DNA of 64,000 bases from NCBI GenBank assembly GCA_026983835.1, contig JALSTH010000009.1, forward strand, positions 1 to 64,000. The letters run 5' to 3'. Of this stretch, positions 26,644 to 42,240 are shown one piece after another; positions within the stretch are counted from its first letter, which is position 1, and each line of letters begins with the position of its first letter. The position numbers and the translations under genes were made by a program. The notes beneath the pieces were generated by a model. That model was not told the origin of the DNA, ran no database searches, and saw only the letters and a program-made list of their open reading frames with translations. Source of the stretch: Candidatus Zixiibacteriota bacterium (lineage in GTDB: Bacteria > Zixibacteria > MSB-5A5 > UM-FILTER-46-8).

Positions 26644-29283
26644 ATGAAATTTTTTAGGTGGAAATTTTTGAAGATTGGTTATCCTTTGCTGCCGCTTACC
26701 GTTTTGGCTGTTTTACTGTTGACTGTGAATGGTTTTGGTAGGACTATGCCGAAGGCGAGGGAGTTTAATCTGCACAAGCCGGCGGCTGGGGTGCCGAACA
26801 CGATTAATGCAACTCATAGGATCTCCAATATCTGGTTTACCGTGACCAACTGGGGTTTTTTAGGTAGTGCGCAAGATCCGAACATAATTGATTGTGAAAC
26901 CGGATTAGCTGCGCCGTCTTGTGAGTTCCCGGGAGGCTCCGAATTGGAGTATCTGTTTCAGGGAGCTTTATGGATTGGGGCAATTGTAGATGGTGATACT
27001 TTGGTTTCCTGCGGTACAGATGGTTGGTGGGATTCTCATGAGTTTTTCCCGGATGTCGCAACCGACTCCACAGGTAAAATTTGGTTGGGTTCAACTCGGC
27101 CCGAAGGTTCGTATCCACGGACTATGACCGATTGCTATCCGGATCAATTCGATATTGACCACTCGATTTCAGAGGAAGATTTTACGGCTTATTATGCTGA
27201 TACGAATGTCACTTATGCGGATGTTGATCCGATCGATCAAAGGCCCCTTCAGCCGATAGGGCTTCAAGTAGAGCAGAAAAGCTATTCGTGGTCTTACGAT
27301 TACGCCGAAGATTTTATAATCTTCGATTTCAAAATAACAAATATCGGTTCGTCTCCCATAAACGATATGTGGGTGGCGTTCCATATAGATGCTGATGTCC
27401 ACCATCGGCTTAACAGTGCCTCTGGTGCTCAGGACGATATGACCGGTTTTTTGCAGAAATTTAAACCGATAGATGCGCTTCCCGAGCCGATTGATATCAA
27501 GACCGCTTATATTATGGACAATGACGGCGATCCTTCAAGCGATGGGACTTGGGATAACAAATCCGTTAGAAGTTGCACGGGTGTTAGGGTGGTGAGAGTT
27601 CCTGAAGGTTCGGATAGTATAGGATTCAACTGGTGGATATCGAATATCAATTCTAATTTGGATTGGGGACCGCAGCATATGGACAATTATCACGGTCCTT
27701 GGCCCGGCGGCGGTAATGGAACTCCCGGAGGAGACCCTGCCCGTTATCTGACGATATCCAACCGCGAGTTCGATTATGATCAGGCTTACGCCGCCATTGA
27801 TTATTCTGGCGGCGATTCTGCCGGGACGAAATGGATTCCGCCGTTGCCTTCAACCAATGCGAAGGATATTGCCAACGGGTATGATACCCGTTATACTTAC
27901 TCCTTCGGACCTTTTGAGACAATCCAACCGGGAGATTCACTTCTTTTGACGGTTGCTTACATCGGCGGTGAGGATGTCCATGTTAATCCTAACGATTACA
28001 AAAATATATTCGAAGGTAACGAGACTGACACTTCAGCTATTCACGCTTTTATAAACAGTCTGGATTTTACGGATTTTGCCGTCAATGCGACTTGGGCTGA
28101 ATGGGTTTACGACAATCCGGGTGTTGATACTGATGGCGACGGAGATTCGGGAAAATATGTTTGCTTAAACGATAGTTGTACCGATAGGATCTGGATAAAG
28201 GGAGATGGTGTTCCGGATTTCGCGGGACCTCCTCCGCCACCATCACCCGAATTAACTTTCGAAACTGAACCGAATAATGTTAACATCCTTTGGGATGGTG
28301 AAAAATCGGAGCATACCCCCGATTTATTCAGCGGTGAGGTCGATTTTGAAGGATACAAAATATATAGATCGAGATCCGGGGTGCTGAATGATTTCACCCT
28401 TTTGGGTTCCTATGACCGTATTGACTATGACAGCTTGGCTTGGGACCCGGTAAATAAGAGGATGAAGTTGAGCAAGAAATCCCCTATGACACTTGGGGAA
28501 CTTTTAACGAGGGCTGATACGAGCTCTTCTTTCAGGTTCGTGGTCGATCTTAAACCGCCTTATACACCGATTATTTGTCCGGATACGACTATCGATGGGA
28601 CTACATATAAGTGGTTTATCCCGCACGGCTATAATATAGGTTGTTATGAGGATACGGTTTTCACTCAGGATACGACGGGTGTCGGTGCGTTGGGGCTTGG
28701 TGGTATTATTCCCGATTCATTGGAAATACATTCCGCTATCTATGATTCGACTGTTGTAGCATTGGATCCGAATACCGGCGATAGCATTGATATAAATTAT
28801 TACACTTTCTCAGTCGATTCGGTATTGTCGAGCGTGCCCTATTATTATGCGGTAACATCCTTCGATTATGGCAATCCGGTGACCGGTTTATCGCCGTTGG
28901 AGAGCTCGAAGGCAATTAATATGCGGGCTATTTATGCGATAGGCGATTTTGACCATATCGAAAGTGATATTTATGTTTATCCTAACCCGTATATTTTGGA
29001 CGGTAGGTACAGAAATCAGGGCTGGGAGAATGTTAATGAAGATCCGGCATATTCCCAGCGGATTTATTTCACCAACCTCCCCGGGAAATGCACCATAAGG
29101 ATATTCACATTGGACGGCGATTTGGTCGATAAGATAGAATTCGACCCGAGCGATTCCGATCAGCCGATTGCGAGCTGGGATCTTATTTCCCGTAATACAC
29201 AATCGATTGTATCAGGGATATATCTTTATAGTGTGGATTATGAGGGTGGCCGTCAAATGGGTAAGTTCGTGATAATTAAATAA
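26644..29283 (+). CDS. Large secreted protein with a C-terminal sorting-like domain
   Basis: N-terminal hydrophobic segment; C-terminus YPNPYILDG...YSQRIYFTNLPGKCTIRIFTLDGDLVDKIE...GIYLYSVDYEGGRQMGKFVIIK. Confidence 0.8.
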   Translation: MKFFRWKFLKIGYPLLPLTVLAVLLLTVNGFGRTMPKAREFNLHKPAAGVPNTINATHRISNIWFTVTNWGFLGSAQDPNIIDCETGLAAPSCEFPGGSELEYLFQGALWIGAIVDGDTLVSCGTDGWWDSHEFFPDVATDSTGKIWLGSTRPEGSYPRTMTDCYPDQFDIDHSISEEDFTAYYADTNVTYADVDPIDQRPLQPIGLQVEQKSYSWSYDYAEDFIIFDFKITNIGSSPINDMWVAFHIDADVHHRLNSASGAQDDMTGFLQKFKPIDALPEPIDIKTAYIMDNDGDPSSDGTWDNKSVRSCTGVRVVRVPEGSDSIGFNWWISNINSNLDWGPQHMDNYHGPWPGGGNGTPGGDPARYLTISNREFDYDQAYAAIDYSGGDSAGTKWIPPLPSTNAKDIANGYDTRYTYSFGPFETIQPGDSLLLTVAYIGGEDVHVNPNDYKNIFEGNETDTSAIHAFINSLDFTDFAVNATWAEWVYDNPGVDTDGDGDSGKYVCLNDSCTDRIWIKGDGVPDFAGPPPPPSPELTFETEPNNVNILWDGEKSEHTPDLFSGEVDFEGYKIYRSRSGVLNDFTLLGSYDRIDYDSLAWDPVNKRMKLSKKSPMTLGELLTRADTSSSFRFVVDLKPPYTPIICPDTTIDGTTYKWFIPHGYNIGCYEDTVFTQDTTGVGALGLGGIIPDSLEIHSAIYDSTVVALDPNTGDSIDINYYTFSVDSVLSSVPYYYAVTSFDYGNPVTGLSPLESSKAINMRAIYAIGDFDHIESDIYVYPNPYILDGRYRNQGWENVNEDPAYSQRIYFTNLPGKCTIRIFTLDGDLVDKIEFDPSDSDQPIASWDLISRNTQSIVSGIYLYSVDYEGGRQMGKFVIIK

Positions 29284-30299: not shown

Positions 30300-32072
30300 A
30301 TGCGGATAAAAAAATTGCTTTGGATGGTCCCCATATTACTTATGGCGACTTCGGTGTATATGTTGGGTTGCTCGAAACTTGAATTGGGCGGGACTGAGAA
30401 GCCGAATATCTCTCCGAGGGTCTTTTTCACGAATGTCCCAAACGACTCAACGCACTTCTCATACAACCCGCCGATATCCTGGTATGGTACGGATGTCGAT
30501 GGAGTTATTGAGGCGTATTATTACAAACTCATCCTGAAGGATAGTATGACTGTTGACCCGGGGACTTACGCGAACTCCATTACTTCTCCGGATAGCTCTT
30601 GGACGATGGTCGAAGCTTCTCAGGATACAATAAAACTTTACGCTCCCGAAAACCCTGATTCGTCATACGAGCAGTATATCTTTTTGACGGCTCAAGATGA
30701 TGATAGTGCTTATGCGAAAGTCAAATATCGGCTGTATTCGCGGCAGAATCACCCTCCGAATACATATTTGGATACTGAATTCTGGAGGACTTATTACAGT
30801 TATCCATATCTTACCGACTATTACGGCGGTATAAATGTAAGTTGGCACGGTGTCGATTCTTTGGATTTTCCCGAAGACCAACCCGATTTCGAGTATTATT
30901 GGGCGTTATTCGGTCCTTTCTCTTCACCGGATAGTATTGTCGCTGAATCGCTGACTGTCGATGATATTTACAGTGCCTATGATTCCACTTTAAACAAGGT
31001 AGTGAAATGGGAATCTTATGATTCCACCGATGGGGATAATTGGGTGTCCGATAAAGAAGTAACCCTTTATAATCTTCGTTCGGGATATTATTGGTTCTGG
31101 GTAATGGCGCGGGACGATGCTTTTGTTATCGACAGCCTTTATACCAATGAGGAAGGTGATACCTTATCGGCAGGGGTTCTGCATATTATCCAACCTTATT
31201 ATACCTCTGATAATGAAGCTAAGGATATCTTGGTTGTTGATGATTCCCGTTATAGAAATTTTCCGGCGGAGATGGATGATAAGACCACGGCGAGGGACTT
31301 TTATATGGGAATATTCGAGAATCTCGGAATCGATACGGCGAAATCGGTCGGTTGGATAGACAATAGTTCCGCCCAGAAATTTACCGGAAACGGAGGTCCC
31401 GAATCGGACTCGCTGCCGATGTATAAGATGGTTATGGTTTTGAATGATGACTGGTTCCAAGAGCTTTCGGATTCCATAGTCTCTTGGTATAAGCGATACC
31501 TGAATGTCGGTGGTAAGATAATGGTGACAGGCCGTAATACTTTCTGTTCAAAACCCCGTGGTAGTATCGAGTATAAGGAAAAGATATATTATGGTTTTGA
31601 AGCTGGCGATACACCGTTGGGGCATTTTGCGAGCGATTATTTCAATTTGGATTATGCGATTTATCCGGGTTGGAATTTCCAGACAAATCTTGATCAGGAG
31701 ATGATCGGTGCTTATTCGGATGATGCGTCGTTCAGCGATGTAACATTCGACACGAGTAAAGTTATCGAAATCGCTAAAAACGGTTCCAATTGGTGGTATG
31801 AAACCAATACCTCATACTTGCCGGCGGTTGAATATCTGTCGAGGTTGGATGAATCCGAGACGATATTCAAATTTATGTCATACGAGCCTATCGGCTCTGA
31901 TTTCGATGGCTGGCCTGTGGCTGTTCGATATGCTCCTACGATGACGGTTGGTGGGCAAACGAGAACTGCTTTTATGACCTCGTATTTCTCCTTCCCGATA
32001 TATTATGTCCAGACCGATGAGGCTGTCGAACTGATGAGGACTATGCTCGAGTGGTATGGTATTTTACAATAG
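30300..32072 (+). CDS. Putative surface lipoprotein of unknown function
   Basis: Lipobox-like SVYMLGCSKLELGG; fibronectin-like segments; ILVVDDSRYRN region. Confidence 0.75.
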   Translation: MRIKKLLWMVPILLMATSVYMLGCSKLELGGTEKPNISPRVFFTNVPNDSTHFSYNPPISWYGTDVDGVIEAYYYKLILKDSMTVDPGTYANSITSPDSSWTMVEASQDTIKLYAPENPDSSYEQYIFLTAQDDDSAYAKVKYRLYSRQNHPPNTYLDTEFWRTYYSYPYLTDYYGGINVSWHGVDSLDFPEDQPDFEYYWALFGPFSSPDSIVAESLTVDDIYSAYDSTLNKVVKWESYDSTDGDNWVSDKEVTLYNLRSGYYWFWVMARDDAFVIDSLYTNEEGDTLSAGVLHIIQPYYTSDNEAKDILVVDDSRYRNFPAEMDDKTTARDFYMGIFENLGIDTAKSVGWIDNSSAQKFTGNGGPESDSLPMYKMVMVLNDDWFQELSDSIVSWYKRYLNVGGKIMVTGRNTFCSKPRGSIEYKEKIYYGFEAGDTPLGHFASDYFNLDYAIYPGWNFQTNLDQEMIGAYSDDASFSDVTFDTSKVIEIAKNGSNWWYETNTSYLPAVEYLSRLDESETIFKFMSYEPIGSDFDGWPVAVRYAPTMTVGGQTRTAFMTSYFSFPIYYVQTDEAVELMRTMLEWYGILQ

Positions 32073-32930: not shown

Positions 32931-34121
32931 TTAAGTTATCCTCATTATCATTTGAGAGATAGGGATTATTACGCAATTTAATCTATTAAGTATCTTCGAT
33001 GTTTTTTTTAGGCTTTCGTTTCTGTTTTGTCCTGAGTCTACGATAATAATTCCCCAATTACCGGTGAACAGCATCCTGCGATGATAGTTCAATATTTGCA
33101 GACGCAAATCGCTGTTTTGAGCGGTTATTCGGTTTAGAAAGGGTATTAATTTAATTTTCCCGTTTGCCGTTGAATTCCCTGCTTCCTCATAATCGGTGTC
33201 GGTGCCACAAAAGATAATGAAATTCGATTTGTTTAATTGTTCCAATAAATCATCATCGAAATGCCATTTCCTGCCGCGAGCATAAATATATTTGAAATTT
33301 CCGGCGAGCCGTTTCAAAATATTCATCGCTTGCTCTAAATTCTTTACTTTTTTCAAACCGACAATGTGTGAGGCGGCATTCATTAGTCTTATGAACTTCG
33401 GCGTGGAAAAAGGTATTTCATACAATATCTGTTCGATTCCGCTTGAAAGAAGCCTTTCCCTTGTTTTGGTGAACCCCTTTTCACCCGGGGTAAGTATATA
33501 TGCATACATCGCTCCGGAATTCATTACCGCCTCCTGATCGTTGGGGGGGAGGGATTGAATTTTATCGATTATTATAGTTAGATATGAAGCCAAAGGAGTG
33601 GTATTAGGGTCGGATATCAGGGTGAAGTTAAATTTCGATTTATCCTCTCCTTCGATAAAGAATTCAAGGGATTTCCCATCGGGGCTTTGCACGCAGTCTG
33701 TGATTGTAAAACCGGTGCCGCTGAGATTATCTACAAGTTCCTTATGAAAAAGCATTTTCGGGTATAAGGGCGATAACCGTATCTCATTTTGTTGCGGAGC
33801 GATATCTTCTCCCTTTTCGTCTTTCCAATGAACATCATCGGGATTTACCCCAAAGGAGGAGGCTGTGGAGATAATGGCAGCCTTCAAACTCGCAAAATGC
33901 TCAGGGGGATATTTTTCGCTGAATAATCTAAAATCGGATAGCGAGGAATATCCCATAATGGGAGGTAAAAGACGGATTCCAAGATATGCTATCCCTATAA
34001 TAATTATTATTATGAACAGAGAGCGGAGCAGCCTTCCAAAAACTGAAGCAGTTCGCCTTTTCGCGGATCGCTGTCTCCTGCTGACCCGTCCTGTAATGTT
34101 TGATTTGCTCCTGCGTGCCAT
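32931..34121 (-). CDS. Membrane-anchored protein, possibly a degenerate divergent polysaccharide deacetylase (YibQ-like)
   Basis: Basic N-terminus plus TM anchor; SYLTIIIDKI...GAMYAYILTPGEKGFTKTRERLLSSGIEQILYEIPF follows the YibQ pattern but weakly. Confidence 0.4.
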   Translation of the reverse strand: MARRSKSNITGRVSRRQRSAKRRTASVFGRLLRSLFIIIIIIGIAYLGIRLLPPIMGYSSLSDFRLFSEKYPPEHFASLKAAIISTASSFGVNPDDVHWKDEKGEDIAPQQNEIRLSPLYPKMLFHKELVDNLSGTGFTITDCVQSPDGKSLEFFIEGEDKSKFNFTLISDPNTTPLASYLTIIIDKIQSLPPNDQEAVMNSGAMYAYILTPGEKGFTKTRERLLSSGIEQILYEIPFSTPKFIRLMNAASHIVGLKKVKNLEQAMNILKRLAGNFKYIYARGRKWHFDDDLLEQLNKSNFIIFCGTDTDYEEAGNSTANGKIKLIPFLNRITAQNSDLRLQILNYHRRMLFTGNWGIIIVDSGQNRNESLKKTSKILNRLNCVIIPISQMIMRIT

Positions 34122-35334: not shown

Positions 35335-37221
35335 TTAAAAAAATCGCCTAAGGGAAACAGTAAAAATATCGTCTCGTATGTGTCCTCGTCGCCAGCCGTT
35401 GATAATCCTTCTTTGTATCAAGAAAGTCAGGTTTTGTAATTCGGCGAATTCGTAATTTAATTCCAAGGAGATAATCCTTTGGTCCTGCCTATCGCTTAAT
35501 ACTCTCAATTTGGTAAAAGTCGTATCTGCGCTGGTTATCGATTCCTCTTCGGAGTGAGTCCATTCCCTTTTATACTCGAAACTGTATTCCGGGGAAATTT
35601 TCAGCTGTTTGGAGGGATAATAATCGAAACCCACCCCCCCCAAATTATTCCGCCTGTCCCAACTCGTAAGCTGCTTCCATTGCTCATCGAATATCAGCTG
35701 TCCGTAATCTTCATAGCGGTATCCGTATTCTATATGGGTCTTGAGGTTATCGGAAACCGAGATCGCCATCTCGGTTCGGGAATAACTTCGACGGAAAATT
35801 CTATTCCTCGAGGATAATATATTTTTTTCATAATCGTAGGTTATATAATTTGCCTGTATTTCGAAATATTGATTAACGGTTATCCAATTGGAAACAATCC
35901 AAATTATTTCCGGAGCAAACAGATAAGTATAATTGCGGTTATTATCCGCCGAAGCTTCTTTATAAATATATATTTGATGAAAATTACGATAATTGAAATG
36001 GGTCCTTGTCATCAGATACTTGCTCCATATACGGAGGTAGTTCATATTCAGTATTTCGCTTTCCACATCTCGATCATTTTGATGGCTATATTGGGCAGGA
36101 TGGTAAAATGAGCGCACCGATGTAAAGAAATCTGTCGATACCGAATCGTGGTTGGTAAGGGCAATACTAAATCCTCCCCCCAATTCTCCATAAGCGGAAT
36201 TTTCATCCCTCTCGTCCTGAGCGAAGTTCTCGTTGTAACCGCTTGTTCTATATGATGCATAAGTATCAATCGGCATATTGAATATTTTGAAGTTTCGTTT
36301 TAATTTGAGATAATAGTCTTCGGAGAGCCGCGAGTTATCCCTGTTGCTTACATCACCTATTACGGCGGAGGTATCATTTGCTCTATAGCGATAGGAATTG
36401 AATAATATCTCCGAGCTTGCCTCGATTTCAAAATTTAGGGGGAGATTTTTTACGATTGTCCCCTCGAAATTATGCTCATTCTTCTCCTGGTTATTTATCC
36501 CCGCTAATGTGTAGGATGAGGAGTAGAATTTCTTTTTACCGCTTGTTCCCGAATAATTAAAACTTATGCTATCACCCGATTGGAAGGATTTAAGGAAAAA
36601 ACCGGATAAGGAAATGGAATTGGAGGGTATATTTCTGTATATTTCCTCATCGATATTCAGAGTTATTCGAAAGATATCCGCATTCAATATTTTGGGGTTT
36701 AGGATTCCATTCCACGACATATTTATCCCCCTATCCCTTTTCTTACCCATCTGTCCCCGTCTGGTAGAGACAGCTCCTCCGAGACCGTAGTCCAAACTCA
36801 ACCATTGATTGGGTTTATATTTACTGACTCCGATTATTTCGGATTGGAGTATCTTTTGATTCCCCAAAACATTATACGCTTCTGAAAAATCAACCGATAT
36901 TCCAAGTCTTGGATTGAAGGAATAAAGTATGGATGCTTTTGCCTTTCCATCTTCCTGCCATTGGTTATTGCCCCCGACCAACAGAGAACGCTTGATTAAG
37001 GTTGATTGTAGTTTGCTGTCGAGGCTGAACGAGAGCTTCCCCCTGCTCGAATATTCGTAGAGTAAGGAACCATCCCATCTGTATGTTTGGTTATCCTGAT
37101 CGAATACGGTAGTGAAAGTGGAACCTTCGGCACTTTTGACTGAAATATTGGAGTACGGCAATAGTATTGCAAACGCCAAGGTAAATTTGAAAAGCAGATT
37201 GTAATAAAAATATCTTTTCAT
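35335..37221 (-). CDS. Outer-membrane beta-barrel-like hypothetical protein
   Basis: Signal peptide, alternating aromatic/polar strands throughout, C-terminal TVSLRRFF. Confidence 0.65.
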   Translation of the reverse strand: MKRYFYYNLLFKFTLAFAILLPYSNISVKSAEGSTFTTVFDQDNQTYRWDGSLLYEYSSRGKLSFSLDSKLQSTLIKRSLLVGGNNQWQEDGKAKASILYSFNPRLGISVDFSEAYNVLGNQKILQSEIIGVSKYKPNQWLSLDYGLGGAVSTRRGQMGKKRDRGINMSWNGILNPKILNADIFRITLNIDEEIYRNIPSNSISLSGFFLKSFQSGDSISFNYSGTSGKKKFYSSSYTLAGINNQEKNEHNFEGTIVKNLPLNFEIEASSEILFNSYRYRANDTSAVIGDVSNRDNSRLSEDYYLKLKRNFKIFNMPIDTYASYRTSGYNENFAQDERDENSAYGELGGGFSIALTNHDSVSTDFFTSVRSFYHPAQYSHQNDRDVESEILNMNYLRIWSKYLMTRTHFNYRNFHQIYIYKEASADNNRNYTYLFAPEIIWIVSNWITVNQYFEIQANYITYDYEKNILSSRNRIFRRSYSRTEMAISVSDNLKTHIEYGYRYEDYGQLIFDEQWKQLTSWDRRNNLGGVGFDYYPSKQLKISPEYSFEYKREWTHSEEESITSADTTFTKLRVLSDRQDQRIISLELNYEFAELQNLTFLIQRRIINGWRRGHIRDDIFTVSLRRFF

Positions 37222-38006
37222 AAGAGGTTATGATATAGTTCGATGTATTTCGGGACAGAGATATCCTCCGGTCTGGAAGAGATGTCTATTCCTATTTCCA
37301 CCATCGTATTTGTAATCTTTTGCATATCCCAACCCATATAACCCCTTAAACAATTATATATTTTTTTTCTCCGTTGAGAAAAGGATGTTTTAACAAACTC
37401 AAAGAAACCTATCCTTTCGTCGTCGGCGATTAATGGATGTGGTAATCGAATTAGACGAATAACAGCTGAAGTTACTTTGGGGGCTGGGTTGAAATACTTA
37501 CGGTTGACGGGGAATAAAAATTCGCTTTTGTAGTCAACTCCTAAAATTACCGATAAAATGCCGTAATCCCTGTTGCCCGGTTCTGTACAGATACGCAACC
37601 CGACTTCTTCTTGAACCATCAACACAGCTTTTGGAAAAAAACGGCGGTTATCCGAAATCCAGCGAAATATTTTCCCTGAAAGGTGGTAGGGGATATTCCC
37701 GCAAAGGCTGACTTCCCTTCCGTCGAATAAATTATCTAAATCGAGTTTCAATATGTCGGTATTTATTACCGAAACGCTGTTGTCATTATTGAATTGTTTT
37801 TTTATGTATTCCGCCAAATAGCCATCGATTTCAACGGTTATTACCGTAAATCCGTTTTCAGCCAAGGGCCTCGTTAAAATACCCTTTCCGCCGCCTATTT
37901 CTAAAACTTCTCCTTTACCGTTTCCCTTGTTTACAACAGCCTGGGCGATTTTATCGGCTATTTTCTTTTTGATAAGAAAATATTGGGAGAGGGATTTATT
38001 ACCCAA
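37218..38006 (-). CDS. ksgA: 16S rRNA dimethyladenosine transferase
   Basis: LSQYFLIKKKIADKIAQ; EIGGGKGILTRPLAE; LCGNIPYHLSGKIFRW; SFSQRRKKIYNCLRG. Confidence 0.95.
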   Translation of the reverse strand: MGNKSLSQYFLIKKKIADKIAQAVVNKGNGKGEVLEIGGGKGILTRPLAENGFTVITVEIDGYLAEYIKKQFNNDNSVSVINTDILKLDLDNLFDGREVSLCGNIPYHLSGKIFRWISDNRRFFPKAVLMVQEEVGLRICTEPGNRDYGILSVILGVDYKSEFLFPVNRKYFNPAPKVTSAVIRLIRLPHPLIADDERIGFFEFVKTSFSQRRKKIYNCLRGYMGWDMQKITNTMVEIGIDISSRPEDISVPKYIELYHNLL

Positions 38007-38021
38007 CGATATCCCTCCGTA

Positions 38022-39410
38022 TCAGCTCTTTTTGCCGAGTTCCCTGATGCGCAATCGTAAACCTAAATCATCCGCTATTCGGCGGCAAGCATCTATATCC
38101 AATTTGGGAACATCGACGACTGAGAGAATGACTTTGTCAAATTTCGATTTGGATTTACTAGCAAAATCGATTATGGAATTGAAGGCGTTTTCCTCGTCAT
38201 TCGGTTTGCAGATTCTGTTATATCCCTCTTTTGTGGGGGCATTTAGGCTTATGGAAACGATATCGATAAATCGCGATAGCTCATCGGTAATATCCCTACC
38301 GTTGATAAGCGACCCCTGCCCGTTGGTATTTAATCGTAGAACAGCACCCCTTTTCTTTAATGTCTTGGCTACATTCACTAAAGTTTTTAAGCGTATTGTT
38401 GGCTCACCGTATCCACAGAAAACTATTTCCTTATACTTGCTTATGTCCTCTCCGATAGCATCCATAATTTCGCTTTCGGATGGCTCATAAGCAAGTTTCA
38501 GATTGTATTCGCCGATTTTATAATCCCTGTTTCGCGCACAGAAAAAACAATTGTTGCTACAACGGTTAGTGATATTTAAATAGAGATTCCCGCCAAGCGA
38601 ATAAGCTATTTTACCTGCTCCGACGGGGGAGAGCTTGAATAATTTTCGGGTATTTGCCTCAGTAATTGCGGATATTTCGGCAACAGTTTTAGGGGCGAAG
38701 ATTTCCGAGAGTTTCTCGGCAACATATCGCACATAGGAGGGTTTGTTTAATTTCCCCCTGTGAGCTTGAGGAGCCAAAAAGGGACAATCGGTTTCAATGA
38801 TGATATTTTCCAATCCGGCATATTCAGCCGATTTTACCGCTTTGGAATTCTTATAAGTGATGGTCCCATTGAACGAAAAAAGAAAATTCAATTCTTTCCC
38901 CTTATCGATATGTTTCGTTTCCCCCGAAAAGCTGTGCAATACACCGCCCACCTTGTCCGCCCGATTTTTTTTCAAGAATTCAATAGTCTCATCGATAGAA
39001 TTACGGCTATGGACAATCAATGGAAGATTAAACTCAACCGCCAAAGCTATCTGCCTTTCGAAGGCGTGGTATTGCGCCGCCTTTGGGCTTAATTTCCTGT
39101 AGAAATCCAATCCGACCTCACCGATAGCAACGACCTTTTCGGATTTTGCCAATTCGACTATTTTATCGAATGTATCATCATCCAATTTGCTTGCATCGTG
39201 AGGATGGAAACCGACAGCCGCCCAGATGTTATCATATCCTTTCGCTAATTCCACCGATTTCTCGGATGAGGGAAGATCTACCCCGACATTGATAATCCCC
39301 ACAACGCCGTTGTCGAAAGCTTCCTTTATAATGCTCTCACGGATACCATTGTATTGTGAAAAGTCTATATGAGTATGTGAATCGAAAAGTCTTATCTTAT
39401 CTTCCCGCAT
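38022..39410 (-). CDS. TatD-family nuclease fused to a radical SAM domain
   Basis: N-part LFDSHTHIDFSQY...AIGEVGLDFYRKLSP...LIVHSRN...IIETDCPFLAPQAHRGKLNKPSYV; C-part LYLNITNRCSNNCFFCARNRDYKIGEY...EIVFCGYGEPTIRL. Confidence 0.93.
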   Translation of the reverse strand: MREDKIRLFDSHTHIDFSQYNGIRESIIKEAFDNGVVGIINVGVDLPSSEKSVELAKGYDNIWAAVGFHPHDASKLDDDTFDKIVELAKSEKVVAIGEVGLDFYRKLSPKAAQYHAFERQIALAVEFNLPLIVHSRNSIDETIEFLKKNRADKVGGVLHSFSGETKHIDKGKELNFLFSFNGTITYKNSKAVKSAEYAGLENIIIETDCPFLAPQAHRGKLNKPSYVRYVAEKLSEIFAPKTVAEISAITEANTRKLFKLSPVGAGKIAYSLGGNLYLNITNRCSNNCFFCARNRDYKIGEYNLKLAYEPSESEIMDAIGEDISKYKEIVFCGYGEPTIRLKTLVNVAKTLKKRGAVLRLNTNGQGSLINGRDITDELSRFIDIVSISLNAPTKEGYNRICKPNDEENAFNSIIDFASKSKSKFDKVILSVVDVPKLDIDACRRIADDLGLRLRIRELGKKS

Positions 39411-39451: not shown

Positions 39452-41371
39452 TTAACTTATTTTGCTTCCGGGGGATATATCCCCATCAGCGGTCAGCAAG
39501 ACCATTTCCCCTTTGTTTTTGGCTGCGAGAAGCATTCCATTTGATTCCACGCCCCGAATTTTCGCCGGCTTGAGGTTTGTTAAGACGATGATGCTTTTGC
39601 CTATCAAATCTTCAGGGGTATAATGTTCGGCGATACCAGCCACTATCTGTCTTTTTTCCGAACCGAGATCGATTTGAAGTTTCAACAGCTTATCGGCACC
39701 GGCGATTGCCTCCGCCGATAGTATTTTGGCGACCCTGAATTTAAGCTTTGCGAAGTCACTTAAGTCGATGAACTCCGCCGTTTTTCTTTCTTCAGGTGTT
39801 GCTTTGGTTAACTGTTTGGATATTTTTGAAACATCGATACGGGGAAACAAAGCTTTTCCGGGTTTTACTTCCATCCCCGGCAAAAGCCATCCCCAATCAG
39901 CTGCTCTTTCGGATATTAACTCCTCGATTTGGGAATTGAATATCTTTGAAAACTCTTCGATCTTTCCCGGCATTATGGGATAAAGAAGCCTTGCTGCGGA
40001 TTTCAGACCTTCCGAGGCCGTATAAAGGATGGTTCCCAATCGTTCCCTGTTCTCGGATTTATAAAGATCCCAAGGCCGATTTTTTTCGATGTATCTGTTC
40101 AGCATCCTGATTAACTGTAAAATTTCTTCGATAGCGGAGTTTATTTTAAATTCGTCCACCAAAGATTTTACTTTTTTCTGCAACTCGATGGACTTTTGTT
40201 TGATTTCCTTATCCTGCGATTCCATTTCTGATACTTTGGGGAGTTTCCCATTTTCGTAGGAGGAGATCATTTTTGTCAGACGGGAGATAAGATTACCGAA
40301 ATCGTTCGCTAAATCGGAATTATACCTGCTGACAAATGATTGCTCGCTGTATGAACTATCCTGCCCCATAGTCATCTCACGCATTAAAAAATATCTGAAA
40401 GCATCCACCCCATATAATTCCGCCAAATCGAGAGGGTTCACCACATTCCCCAAAGATTTGGACATTTTCGTATCATCTTTGAGCCACCATCCATGAGCAA
40501 ATATCGTCTTCGGCATCGGGATGCCCATCGCTTTTAGCATAATGGGCCAATATACAGCGTGGGTGGTAAGGATATCTTTTCCAATAAGATGGACTGCATT
40601 GGGCCACCATTTATTGAATTTATTTTCATCGGAGAGATAACCGATAGCCGAGATATAATTAATCAACGCATCGAACCACACATAACAGACATAATCCCTA
40701 TCGAAAGGAAGCCCTATTCCCCACGAAAGCCGAGATTTCGGTCTGGAAATACACAAATCCCCTAATTTCTTTTTGAGATATCCCAATATCTCATTTTTAC
40801 GGTGCTCCGGTCGTATAAAATTCGGATTGCTTTCGATGTAATCGATGAGCCAATCCTGATATTTGCTCATTTTGAAAAAATAATTATCTTCGGAAATGCG
40901 ACTTACGGGACGACCGCAATCGGGACAGTTTCCATCCGCCAAATCCTTTTCGGTCCAAAACCTTTCCTCATATTTGCAATACCATCCCTCATAGCTACTC
41001 TTATAAATCTCTCCTTCATCGTAGAGCTTGCCAAGTATATGGAGAACTACCTCTATATGGCGCTGTTGAGTGGTACGGATGAAATCATCGTAGGATATAT
41101 TGAGCCTTTTCCAAGTATCGAGAAATCTGGTTACTATCTCATCGCAATATTCCTTTGGAGGTATCCCCCTTGATGTAGCTGTGTCCTGAAGCTTCTGTCC
41201 GTGCTCGTCCGTGCCGGTTAAAAAGAATGCTTCCCGCCCGAAGATTCGGTTATATCGAACCAATACATCCGCCGCTACGGTTGTGTAGGCATGTCCGATG
41301 TGGGGCTTATCGTTAACATAATAGATAGGCGTAGTTATATAAAACCTGTTTTTCAATTGGGTTGCCCTCAA
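39452..41371 (-). CDS. metG: Methionyl-tRNA synthetase with C-terminal tRNA-binding domain
   Basis: TTPIYYVNDKPHIGHAYTTVAADVL; KMSKSLGN; C-terminal FAKLKFRVAKILSAEAIAGADKLLKLQIDLG. Confidence 0.97.
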   Translation of the reverse strand: MRATQLKNRFYITTPIYYVNDKPHIGHAYTTVAADVLVRYNRIFGREAFFLTGTDEHGQKLQDTATSRGIPPKEYCDEIVTRFLDTWKRLNISYDDFIRTTQQRHIEVVLHILGKLYDEGEIYKSSYEGWYCKYEERFWTEKDLADGNCPDCGRPVSRISEDNYFFKMSKYQDWLIDYIESNPNFIRPEHRKNEILGYLKKKLGDLCISRPKSRLSWGIGLPFDRDYVCYVWFDALINYISAIGYLSDENKFNKWWPNAVHLIGKDILTTHAVYWPIMLKAMGIPMPKTIFAHGWWLKDDTKMSKSLGNVVNPLDLAELYGVDAFRYFLMREMTMGQDSSYSEQSFVSRYNSDLANDFGNLISRLTKMISSYENGKLPKVSEMESQDKEIKQKSIELQKKVKSLVDEFKINSAIEEILQLIRMLNRYIEKNRPWDLYKSENRERLGTILYTASEGLKSAARLLYPIMPGKIEEFSKIFNSQIEELISERAADWGWLLPGMEVKPGKALFPRIDVSKISKQLTKATPEERKTAEFIDLSDFAKLKFRVAKILSAEAIAGADKLLKLQIDLGSEKRQIVAGIAEHYTPEDLIGKSIIVLTNLKPAKIRGVESNGMLLAAKNKGEMVLLTADGDISPGSKIS

Positions 41372-42240
41372 TGTCGTTTCGATTTATTTTTCTTGTTTAC
41401 TATTTCTTTTTTCAGCTTCCCCCGTTCTTTAAGTCTTAATCTCTTTCTATATTCCCTTAAGGGGAGTTTCTCCTCGTAGCCGTCATCGTATCTGCAAATT
41501 AATTTGTTATTAAAAATATCGATATTGATTACTGTGGCATTGCCGGGGCAAACCTCACATTTACTGCCCGGGGATGGGAATTTCGATTTTAGCTGCTCAT
41601 AAATGGGTTGCTCATACAATAAACAACAGAGCAAACGGCCGCAATTCCCGGAAATCTTGCTTGGATTTAAGGAAAGGTTTTGATCGCGCGCCAATTGGGT
41701 GGAAATAGGTTTGAAATCGTTTAACCAATTGCTGCAGCATTGGGGTAATCCGCAGCACCCATACCCTCCCATCCTTTTCGCTTCATCGCGGACTCCTATC
41801 TGCCTTAGTTCAATTCTCGTCCGATAAATACTTGCCAAATCCTTAACTAGTTCGCGGAAATCAATTCGCTTATCAGCGGTGAAATAAAATGTTATTTTAT
41901 TACAATCGAACTGATATTCGACATCCACCAATTTCATATTAAGTTCTCTCTCACCGATTAAATGAAGGCATTCCTCAAAGGATTCCTCCTCTTTTTGACG
42001 GTTGAACCTAAGCCTATCCAAATCATCCTTGCCTGCTACCCTCAATATATTCGGCAGATTATCATCTAATAAGCTCTCGGCTTCATTAACCGTTAGGGAC
42101 CTGACGATTCTACCCATATCTTCTCCTCGCTCCGCCTGCACAATCGCATATTCGCCCTTTTTTAGGGGAAGGTCGAGATAATTATAGTAGTAATTTCTAT
42201 GGTATCCCTTAAATTCTATTATATAATATTTGGCGCTCAT
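41368..42240 (-). CDS. ricT: PSP1/RicT-like protein
   Basis: YCGLPQCCSNWLNDFKPISTQLARDQNLSLNPSKISGNCGRLLCCLLYE, the PSP1-domain signature; adjacent to metG. Confidence 0.9.
   Translation of the reverse strand: MSAKYYIIEFKGYHRNYYYNYLDLPLKKGEYAIVQAERGEDMGRIVRSLTVNEAESLLDDNLPNILRVAGKDDLDRLRFNRQKEEESFEECLHLIGERELNMKLVDVEYQFDCNKITFYFTADKRIDFRELVKDLASIYRTRIELRQIGVRDEAKRMGGYGCCGLPQCCSNWLNDFKPISTQLARDQNLSLNPSKISGNCGRLLCCLLYEQPIYEQLKSKFPSPGSKCEVCPGNATVINIDIFNNKLICRYDDGYEEKLPLREYRKRLRLKERGKLKKEIVNKKNKSKRH

Follow-up and report, generated by a model that had tools for sequence, protein, structure and literature searches.

The protein studied here combines a TatD nuclease and a radical SAM domain in one intact chain of 462 residues, and in Nitrospirota and four families of Zixibacteria this fused arrangement is the norm. 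Its initial description as a single two-domain protein was borne out by the ORF itself, which begins with ATG and has no internal stop and no frameshift, whether at the domain junction (where the first-pass annotation had advised looking for one) or elsewhere. The architecture is real but already catalogued; given that the association is named in NCBIfam, the fusion will not surprise a specialist. The one new lead is a signature in the last helix of the TatD domain, of which we found no earlier report. We also found no mention in the literature searched of TIGR04038, the family to which the radical SAM domain belongs, and among papers containing both "TatD" and "radical SAM," none appears, to judge from titles and abstracts, to treat the association.

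Locus and domain architecture

In the window (the whole 64,000-nucleotide stretch of DNA analyzed), the gene order on one strand is ricT, metG, the fused gene, and ksgA (Table 1). The ORF coordinates given initially were exact, with only the strand left unstated, and profile matches confirmed RicT, MetG, and KsgA as the neighbors. Elsewhere in the window, three ORFs (26644 to 29283, 30300 to 32072, and 32931 to 34121, encoding 879, 590, and 396 aa) had no Pfam match at 1e-8.

Table 1. Features of the fused gene and its neighbors, in window coordinates
Feature	Position	Strand	Remarks
ricT	41368..42240	minus	NF041131, 276.7 bits; 4-nt overlap with metG
metG (methionine--tRNA ligase), upstream	39452..41371	minus	NF008900, 871.7 bits; 41-nt gap to fused gene
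tatD-radical SAM fusion gene	38022..39410	minus	462 aa, single open frame
TatD nuclease domain, residues 9-259	38634..39386	minus	Group II (HxH); Pfam and NCBIfam
HxH motif, H12-T-H14	39369..39377	minus	Sequence; invariant in alignment of fused relatives
Last TatD helix, residues 243-257	38640..38684	minus	Usually D245-x-x-R248 in fused TatDs; here E245 and A248
Linker between TatD and radical SAM, residues 260-266	38613..38633	minus	Domain limits from profiles
Radical SAM domain, residues 267-458	38037..38612	minus	TIGR04038 (tatD_link_rSAM) profile match
CSNNCFFC, a CxxxCxxC [4Fe-4S]/SAM motif (C284, C288, C291)	38538..38561	minus	Invariant in two alignments
GEPTIRL, residues 335-341, SAM amino-group motif	38388..38408	minus	Sequence and alignments
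ksgA (rsmA), next downstream gene	37218..38006	minus	TIGR00755, 211.6 bits; 15-nt gap to fused gene

The N-terminal ~257 residues had been read as a complete TatD domain, and rightly so. Pfam TatD_DNase (PF01026) matches the domain with 254.6 bits (cut-off, 27), and NCBIfam TIGR00010 places the protein in the TatD family with 243.7 bits (cut-off, 206). Group I and Group II TatD enzymes, their metal ligands, and their demonstrated activities as 3'-5' exonucleases and AP endonucleases have been described by Dorival and Eichman (PMC10085689). All six Group II metal residues (H12, H14, E98, H134, H159, and D208) are present in the window protein; they are invariant across the 108 TatDs that we compared, save in one truncated row, and together with CxxxCxxC and GEP they are unchanged in an alignment of 37 fused relatives. 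The modelled TatD half superposes on 6l25 and 1j6o with TM-scores of 0.93 to 0.95 over the target. In this regard the window protein shares a full-length domain and all metal residues with the named Group II members (YcfH and YjjV of E. coli, TM0667 of T. maritima [PDB 1j6o], and 6l25 of S. aureus), from which it differs by its added C-terminal radical SAM domain. No second TatD was detected in the window's 2.53-Mb draft genome, and in the genomes checked the fused protein is likewise the sole TatD over the cut-off.

The two motifs first noticed in the C-terminal part were found there at residues 284 to 291 and 335 to 341, and the junction, initially placed near 38640, corresponds to the linker at about 38613 to 38633. 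The C-terminal domain belongs to TIGR04038, scoring 239.4 bits against a cut-off of 129.7 over model positions 1 to 191 of 192, and Pfam Radical_SAM matches residues 278 to 416 with 62.8 bits. Sequence, model, and fold search agree on membership in the radical SAM superfamily through CxxxCxxC, GEP (335 to 337), and a partial TIM barrel; C332, just before GEPTIRL, is invariant throughout the family in our alignments. The domain is minimal, and no auxiliary-cluster (SPASM) or B12 domain was found in it.

A structure model of the radical SAM domain alone reached a pLDDT of 93 and a pTM of 0.89; the full-length AlphaFold model had a pLDDT of 91.5 within domains and a pTM of 0.61, so that the arrangement of the two domains is not fixed by it. 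The nearest solved folds were TYW1 (first), NifB, pyruvate formate-lyase (PFL) activase, viperin, and QueE, all of which have the partial barrel in common with the window domain (TM-score of 0.6 to 0.74 over the query) but share only 14 to 20% identity with it, and the window domain lacks extra domains. A search for solved structures related by sequence returned none (best E, 0.015).

As to its closest kin, the window domain matches the whole TIGR04038 model, and the family name itself records the TatD association; the family description mentions TatD-adjacent genes. The stand-alone TatD-associated radical SAM genes of other bacteria, to which the first-pass annotation had alluded, belong to this same family. 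Unlike these free-standing members, the window's copy is fused, as are most members in Nitrospirota and Zixibacteria. The sister family TIGR04100 (rSAM_pair_X) gave 200.8 bits, below its cut-off of 262, which leaves the window domain outside it; true TIGR04100 members are free-standing, and some adjoin a pyridoxamine kinase gene.

Authenticity, distribution, and history of the fusion

The window genome is an incomplete draft of 134 contigs, which might favor a sequencing or assembly artefact. Against this, the fusion is present in all four sampled genomes of the window's family, the window included (63 to 66% identity), and it recurs in many phyla; neither the other three family genomes nor these phyla show a frameshift in it. 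The named contigs closest to the window are from Candidatus Zixiibacteriota, and its phylum is called Zixibacteria here for that reason. Among the family's genomes, dN is 0.24 to 0.33 at saturated synonymous sites for both halves, which are thus both under purifying selection. Together, the three fused family genomes and the selection on both halves exclude a sequencing-error fusion in practice, and we consider the chance of an artefact of any kind negligible.

Of 133 Zixibacteria genomes, 17 score above the TIGR04038 cut-off; they belong to four families (f1, f10, f14, and f19). Sixteen of these carry TatD and radical SAM in one frame, and the 17th (L107) starts at a contig edge; the case that relatives all have split genes, which would have spoken against a true fusion, is therefore not what we observed, split genes being found in Clostridia and Elusimicrobia. 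In the Nitrospirota sample, 57 of 118 genomes exceed the cut-off, nearly all with frames long enough for the fusion, and all 10 of the loci fetched were fused. Omnitrophota, Ignavibacteria, Nitrospinota, and some Deltaproteobacteria have fused copies as well; in all, the fusion is present in at least five phyla. The notion that it is unusual was not supported, for in Nitrospirota and the four Zixibacteria families it predominates. In the clostridial phylum, 75 of 300 sampled genomes exceed the cut-off with frames of 193 to 255 aa, the one exception being a 493-aa frame whose TatD lies on another contig. Clostridia and Elusimicrobia have two separate genes, often neighboring, including in the order metG-tatD-rSAM-ksgA. 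A tatD was found beside the radical SAM gene in 19 of 60 sampled clostridial loci and was not seen adjoining it in the other 41, which means that the radical SAM protein can work without a neighboring TatD.

Several individual loci deserve mention. Within the otherwise fused Ignavibacteria-type clade, a single stop splits TatD from radical SAM at L053:4001-5350, where R248 of the TatD half is kept; this is likely a recent fission, or else a sequencing error in that contig. An elusimicrobial locus (L090) has the order ricT-metG-rSAM with no tatD between; the radical SAM gene there has been kept beside metG, its TatD partner being encoded elsewhere in the genome. Radical SAM genes resembling TIGR04038 or TIGR04100 repeatedly adjoin a pyridoxamine-kinase-like gene (PRK07105) in Clostridia (L214 to L219 and L248), possibly as a separate functional branch. 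In two further clostridial loci (L087 and L089), a large gene (895 and 916 aa, respectively) lies immediately before the radical SAM gene; the one in L087 has RecD-like helicase domains. No common theme emerged from the neighbors of unlinked radical SAM genes, among them helicases (DnaB-like and RecD-like), histidine kinases, DAHP synthase, and pyridoxamine kinase.

It had also been proposed that the radical SAM domain occupies the slot held by rnmV in Bacillus. A replacement of rnmV is not supported, as the unfused Zixibacteria relatives have the order metG-tatD-ksgA with nothing between tatD and ksgA, so that no rnmV was displaced in this lineage. In Clostridia, RnmV (TIGR00334) scored above its cut-off in none of 36 genomes that carry the radical SAM gene versus 9 of 36 that lack it (Fisher p of 0.002, uncorrected for kinship among genomes that are not independent). 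This anticorrelation is a positional coincidence or a lineage effect; we know of no radical SAM enzyme that could take on RnmV's ribonuclease job. What does often lie between the radical SAM gene and ksgA in Clostridia is a YabE-like protein (identified from its G5/3D-type sequence). At one locus (L149), the gene in this place by eye looks transaldolase-like.

The histories of the two halves were traced separately. Fused and unfused TatD domains from Zixibacteria group together in one clade (100/99). The hypothesis that every fused TatD domain belongs to a single clade was strongly rejected (p of 2.7e-46), a result that the fusion's having been gained repeatedly and its having arisen long ago and been lost many times explain equally well. 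The radical SAM domain is too short for its tree to be resolved. A quick radical SAM tree put the window family among Clostridia (SH-aLRT of 98), as if it had fused independently with a clostridial gene; this idea was dropped. A careful tree with wider sampling put the window family beside Zixibacteria family f19, inside the fused group. Neither a single radical SAM clade of all fused proteins (p of 0.41) nor one of all Zixibacteria (p of 0.31) was rejected.

A signature in the last TatD helix

When an alignment of 45 fused and 63 unfused TatDs was scanned for residues that mark fused copies, R248 and D245, both in the last helix, stood out. D245-x-x-R248 is present in 40 of the 45 fused proteins versus 2 of the 63 unfused ones, and the genomes of these two (L122 and L198) each carry a separate TIGR04038 gene. 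The window copy itself is without the signature D and R, of which the R is retained in the three other genomes of its family.

We also compared TatD similarity in 20-residue segments, setting fused copies from other phyla against unfused copies from the same phylum. In segment 241-260, the fused TatDs of Zixibacteria score 0.46 against fused TatDs of other phyla and 0.35 against unfused ones of their own phylum, whereas in the other segments they are nearer to, or level with, the latter. The difference persists without the two signature positions (0.45 versus 0.38), and the pattern is seen in all four Zixibacteria families that have the fusion. The same holds for Nitrospirota (0.50 versus 0.38), where, besides the helix, only segments 61-100 lean weakly the same way. 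Given that the last helix (about residues 241 to 259) is the one stretch of TatD that is consistently nearer to fused TatDs of other phyla than to unfused TatDs of its own, and this in two phyla, the helix and the radical SAM domain behave as one unit. An independent-pairs test of D-x-x-R against fusion gave 3 supported pairs, in the same direction on average and too few for significance. Since the pattern was found after looking and this test is underpowered, we treat helix tracking as a lead rather than proof. As a sequence pattern, it would fit an interface between helix and radical SAM domain, a helix that travels with that domain, or a helix that became relaxed once the domain had been lost.

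The breadth of the pairing (one chain in at least five phyla, adjoining separate genes elsewhere), together with the last helix, supports the direct functional link between TatD and radical SAM that the first-pass annotation had proposed. The opposing explanation is that co-location came first: within an old cluster of housekeeping genes, a radical SAM gene came to lie beside tatD, and loss of a stop codon fused two proteins with unrelated jobs. In line with this account, Clostridia and Elusimicrobia have the two as adjoining separate genes in that same cluster, many radical SAM copies are unlinked, and the L090 copy is kept beside metG without tatD. The account is harder to reconcile with the maintenance of the fusion across phyla, with a last TatD helix that tracks the radical SAM domain in two of them, and with the L053 fission, which left the pair adjacent and R248 in place. 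On balance we regard it as unlikely, if still deserving of serious attention.

Proposed function

We lean, tentatively and at rather less than even confidence, toward a bifunctional enzyme whose two heads act on one nucleic-acid substrate. The N-terminal head, the cell's only standard TatD, would be a YcfH-type two-metal enzyme with 3'-5' exonuclease/AP endonuclease activity. The C-terminal head is predicted to bind a [4Fe-4S] cluster and SAM and to make a 5'-deoxyadenosyl radical, with which it might alter or repair a changed nucleotide in DNA or, given the metG-ksgA setting, in tRNA or rRNA. The TatD head could then cut or trim at the nucleotide so treated, and the single chain would keep both steps together, in lineages that are probably mostly anaerobic. 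We infer the activity of each head, the substrate, the order of steps, and the anaerobic life style; the nucleic-acid substrate in particular is suggested by TatD biochemistry and by the persistence of the TatD-radical SAM pairing. The fold matches include proteins with nucleotide- or tRNA-acting roles, namely TYW1 (the first match), QueE, and viperin, but PFL activase and NifB match just as strongly in the same search, which therefore makes no choice of substrate. Further points in favor are the complete and conserved catalytic sites of both halves, the recurrence of the fusion across phyla, the clostridial split pairs in the order metG-tatD-rSAM-ksgA, the fused protein's place as sole TatD, and the last-helix pattern. 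Points against are the 41 clostridial loci with no tatD seen beside the radical SAM gene, the missing D and R in the window copy, and a full-length model that leaves the arrangement of the domains unfixed. A shortage of AP endonucleases as the reason for the fusion was considered and rejected, as Nfo (endonuclease IV) is encoded in the window genome (94.7% complete) and TatD is not its sole AP endonuclease; Xth (exonuclease III) was not detected in it.

PFL activase and NrdG put a glycyl radical on a partner protein. Conceivably, the radical SAM half is likewise an activase that puts a radical, glycyl or other, on a partner, with TatD attached by regulation or by chance. Its minimal size, the place of PFL activase among the top fold matches, and weak matches to the NrdG2 and PFLA profiles would agree with this. 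However, the NrdG2 and PFLA scores are far under the curated cut-offs, neither the window nor any related locus examined has a glycyl radical enzyme gene among the neighbors, and the persistent partner is TatD; an activase therefore seems to us distinctly improbable.

The setting of the gene raises another possibility, that the radical SAM half modifies tRNA or rRNA and TatD trims 3' ends; the protein would then be the enzyme by which the metG-ksgA cluster takes part in RNA maturation. Both the neighbors (metG, ksgA, and ricT) and the rank of TYW1 as first fold match point in this direction. Unfused tatD has the same neighborhood, however, so the neighborhood says little about the radical SAM half, and the best RNA-modifying radical SAM profile is very weak (TYW1, 22.9 bits versus a cut-off of 318). 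We hold a dedicated role in RNA maturation to be about as doubtful as the activase.

Very improbable indeed is a role in anti-phage defence, in which TatD would act as in QatD and the radical SAM domain as in prokaryotic viperin. Weak PADLOC matches (QatD, 73 bits; pVip, 32 bits) hint at it, but the corresponding equivalogs score far below their cut-offs (84.9 versus 230 for QatD and 30 versus 180 for viperin) and so reflect superfamily membership; moreover, the locus is a vertically stable housekeeping one with no defence genes nearby.

Returning to the bifunctional enzyme, a more specific version, to which we give a rather slim chance, is that the last helix and the radical SAM domain form one functional module repeatedly added to, or lost from, the resident tatD genes of several phyla, the radical reaction being a novel one on nucleic acid held by TatD, for instance where a 3' end is blocked or at an AP site.

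Since TatD constrains the substrate to near nucleic acid, a fused chain with both predicted active sites intact is a convenient one in which to find the substrate of the radical, and the helix signature offers a direct place to look for coupling between the halves. If the module reading is true, the protein would be an anaerobic, radical-assisted nucleic-acid repair enzyme.
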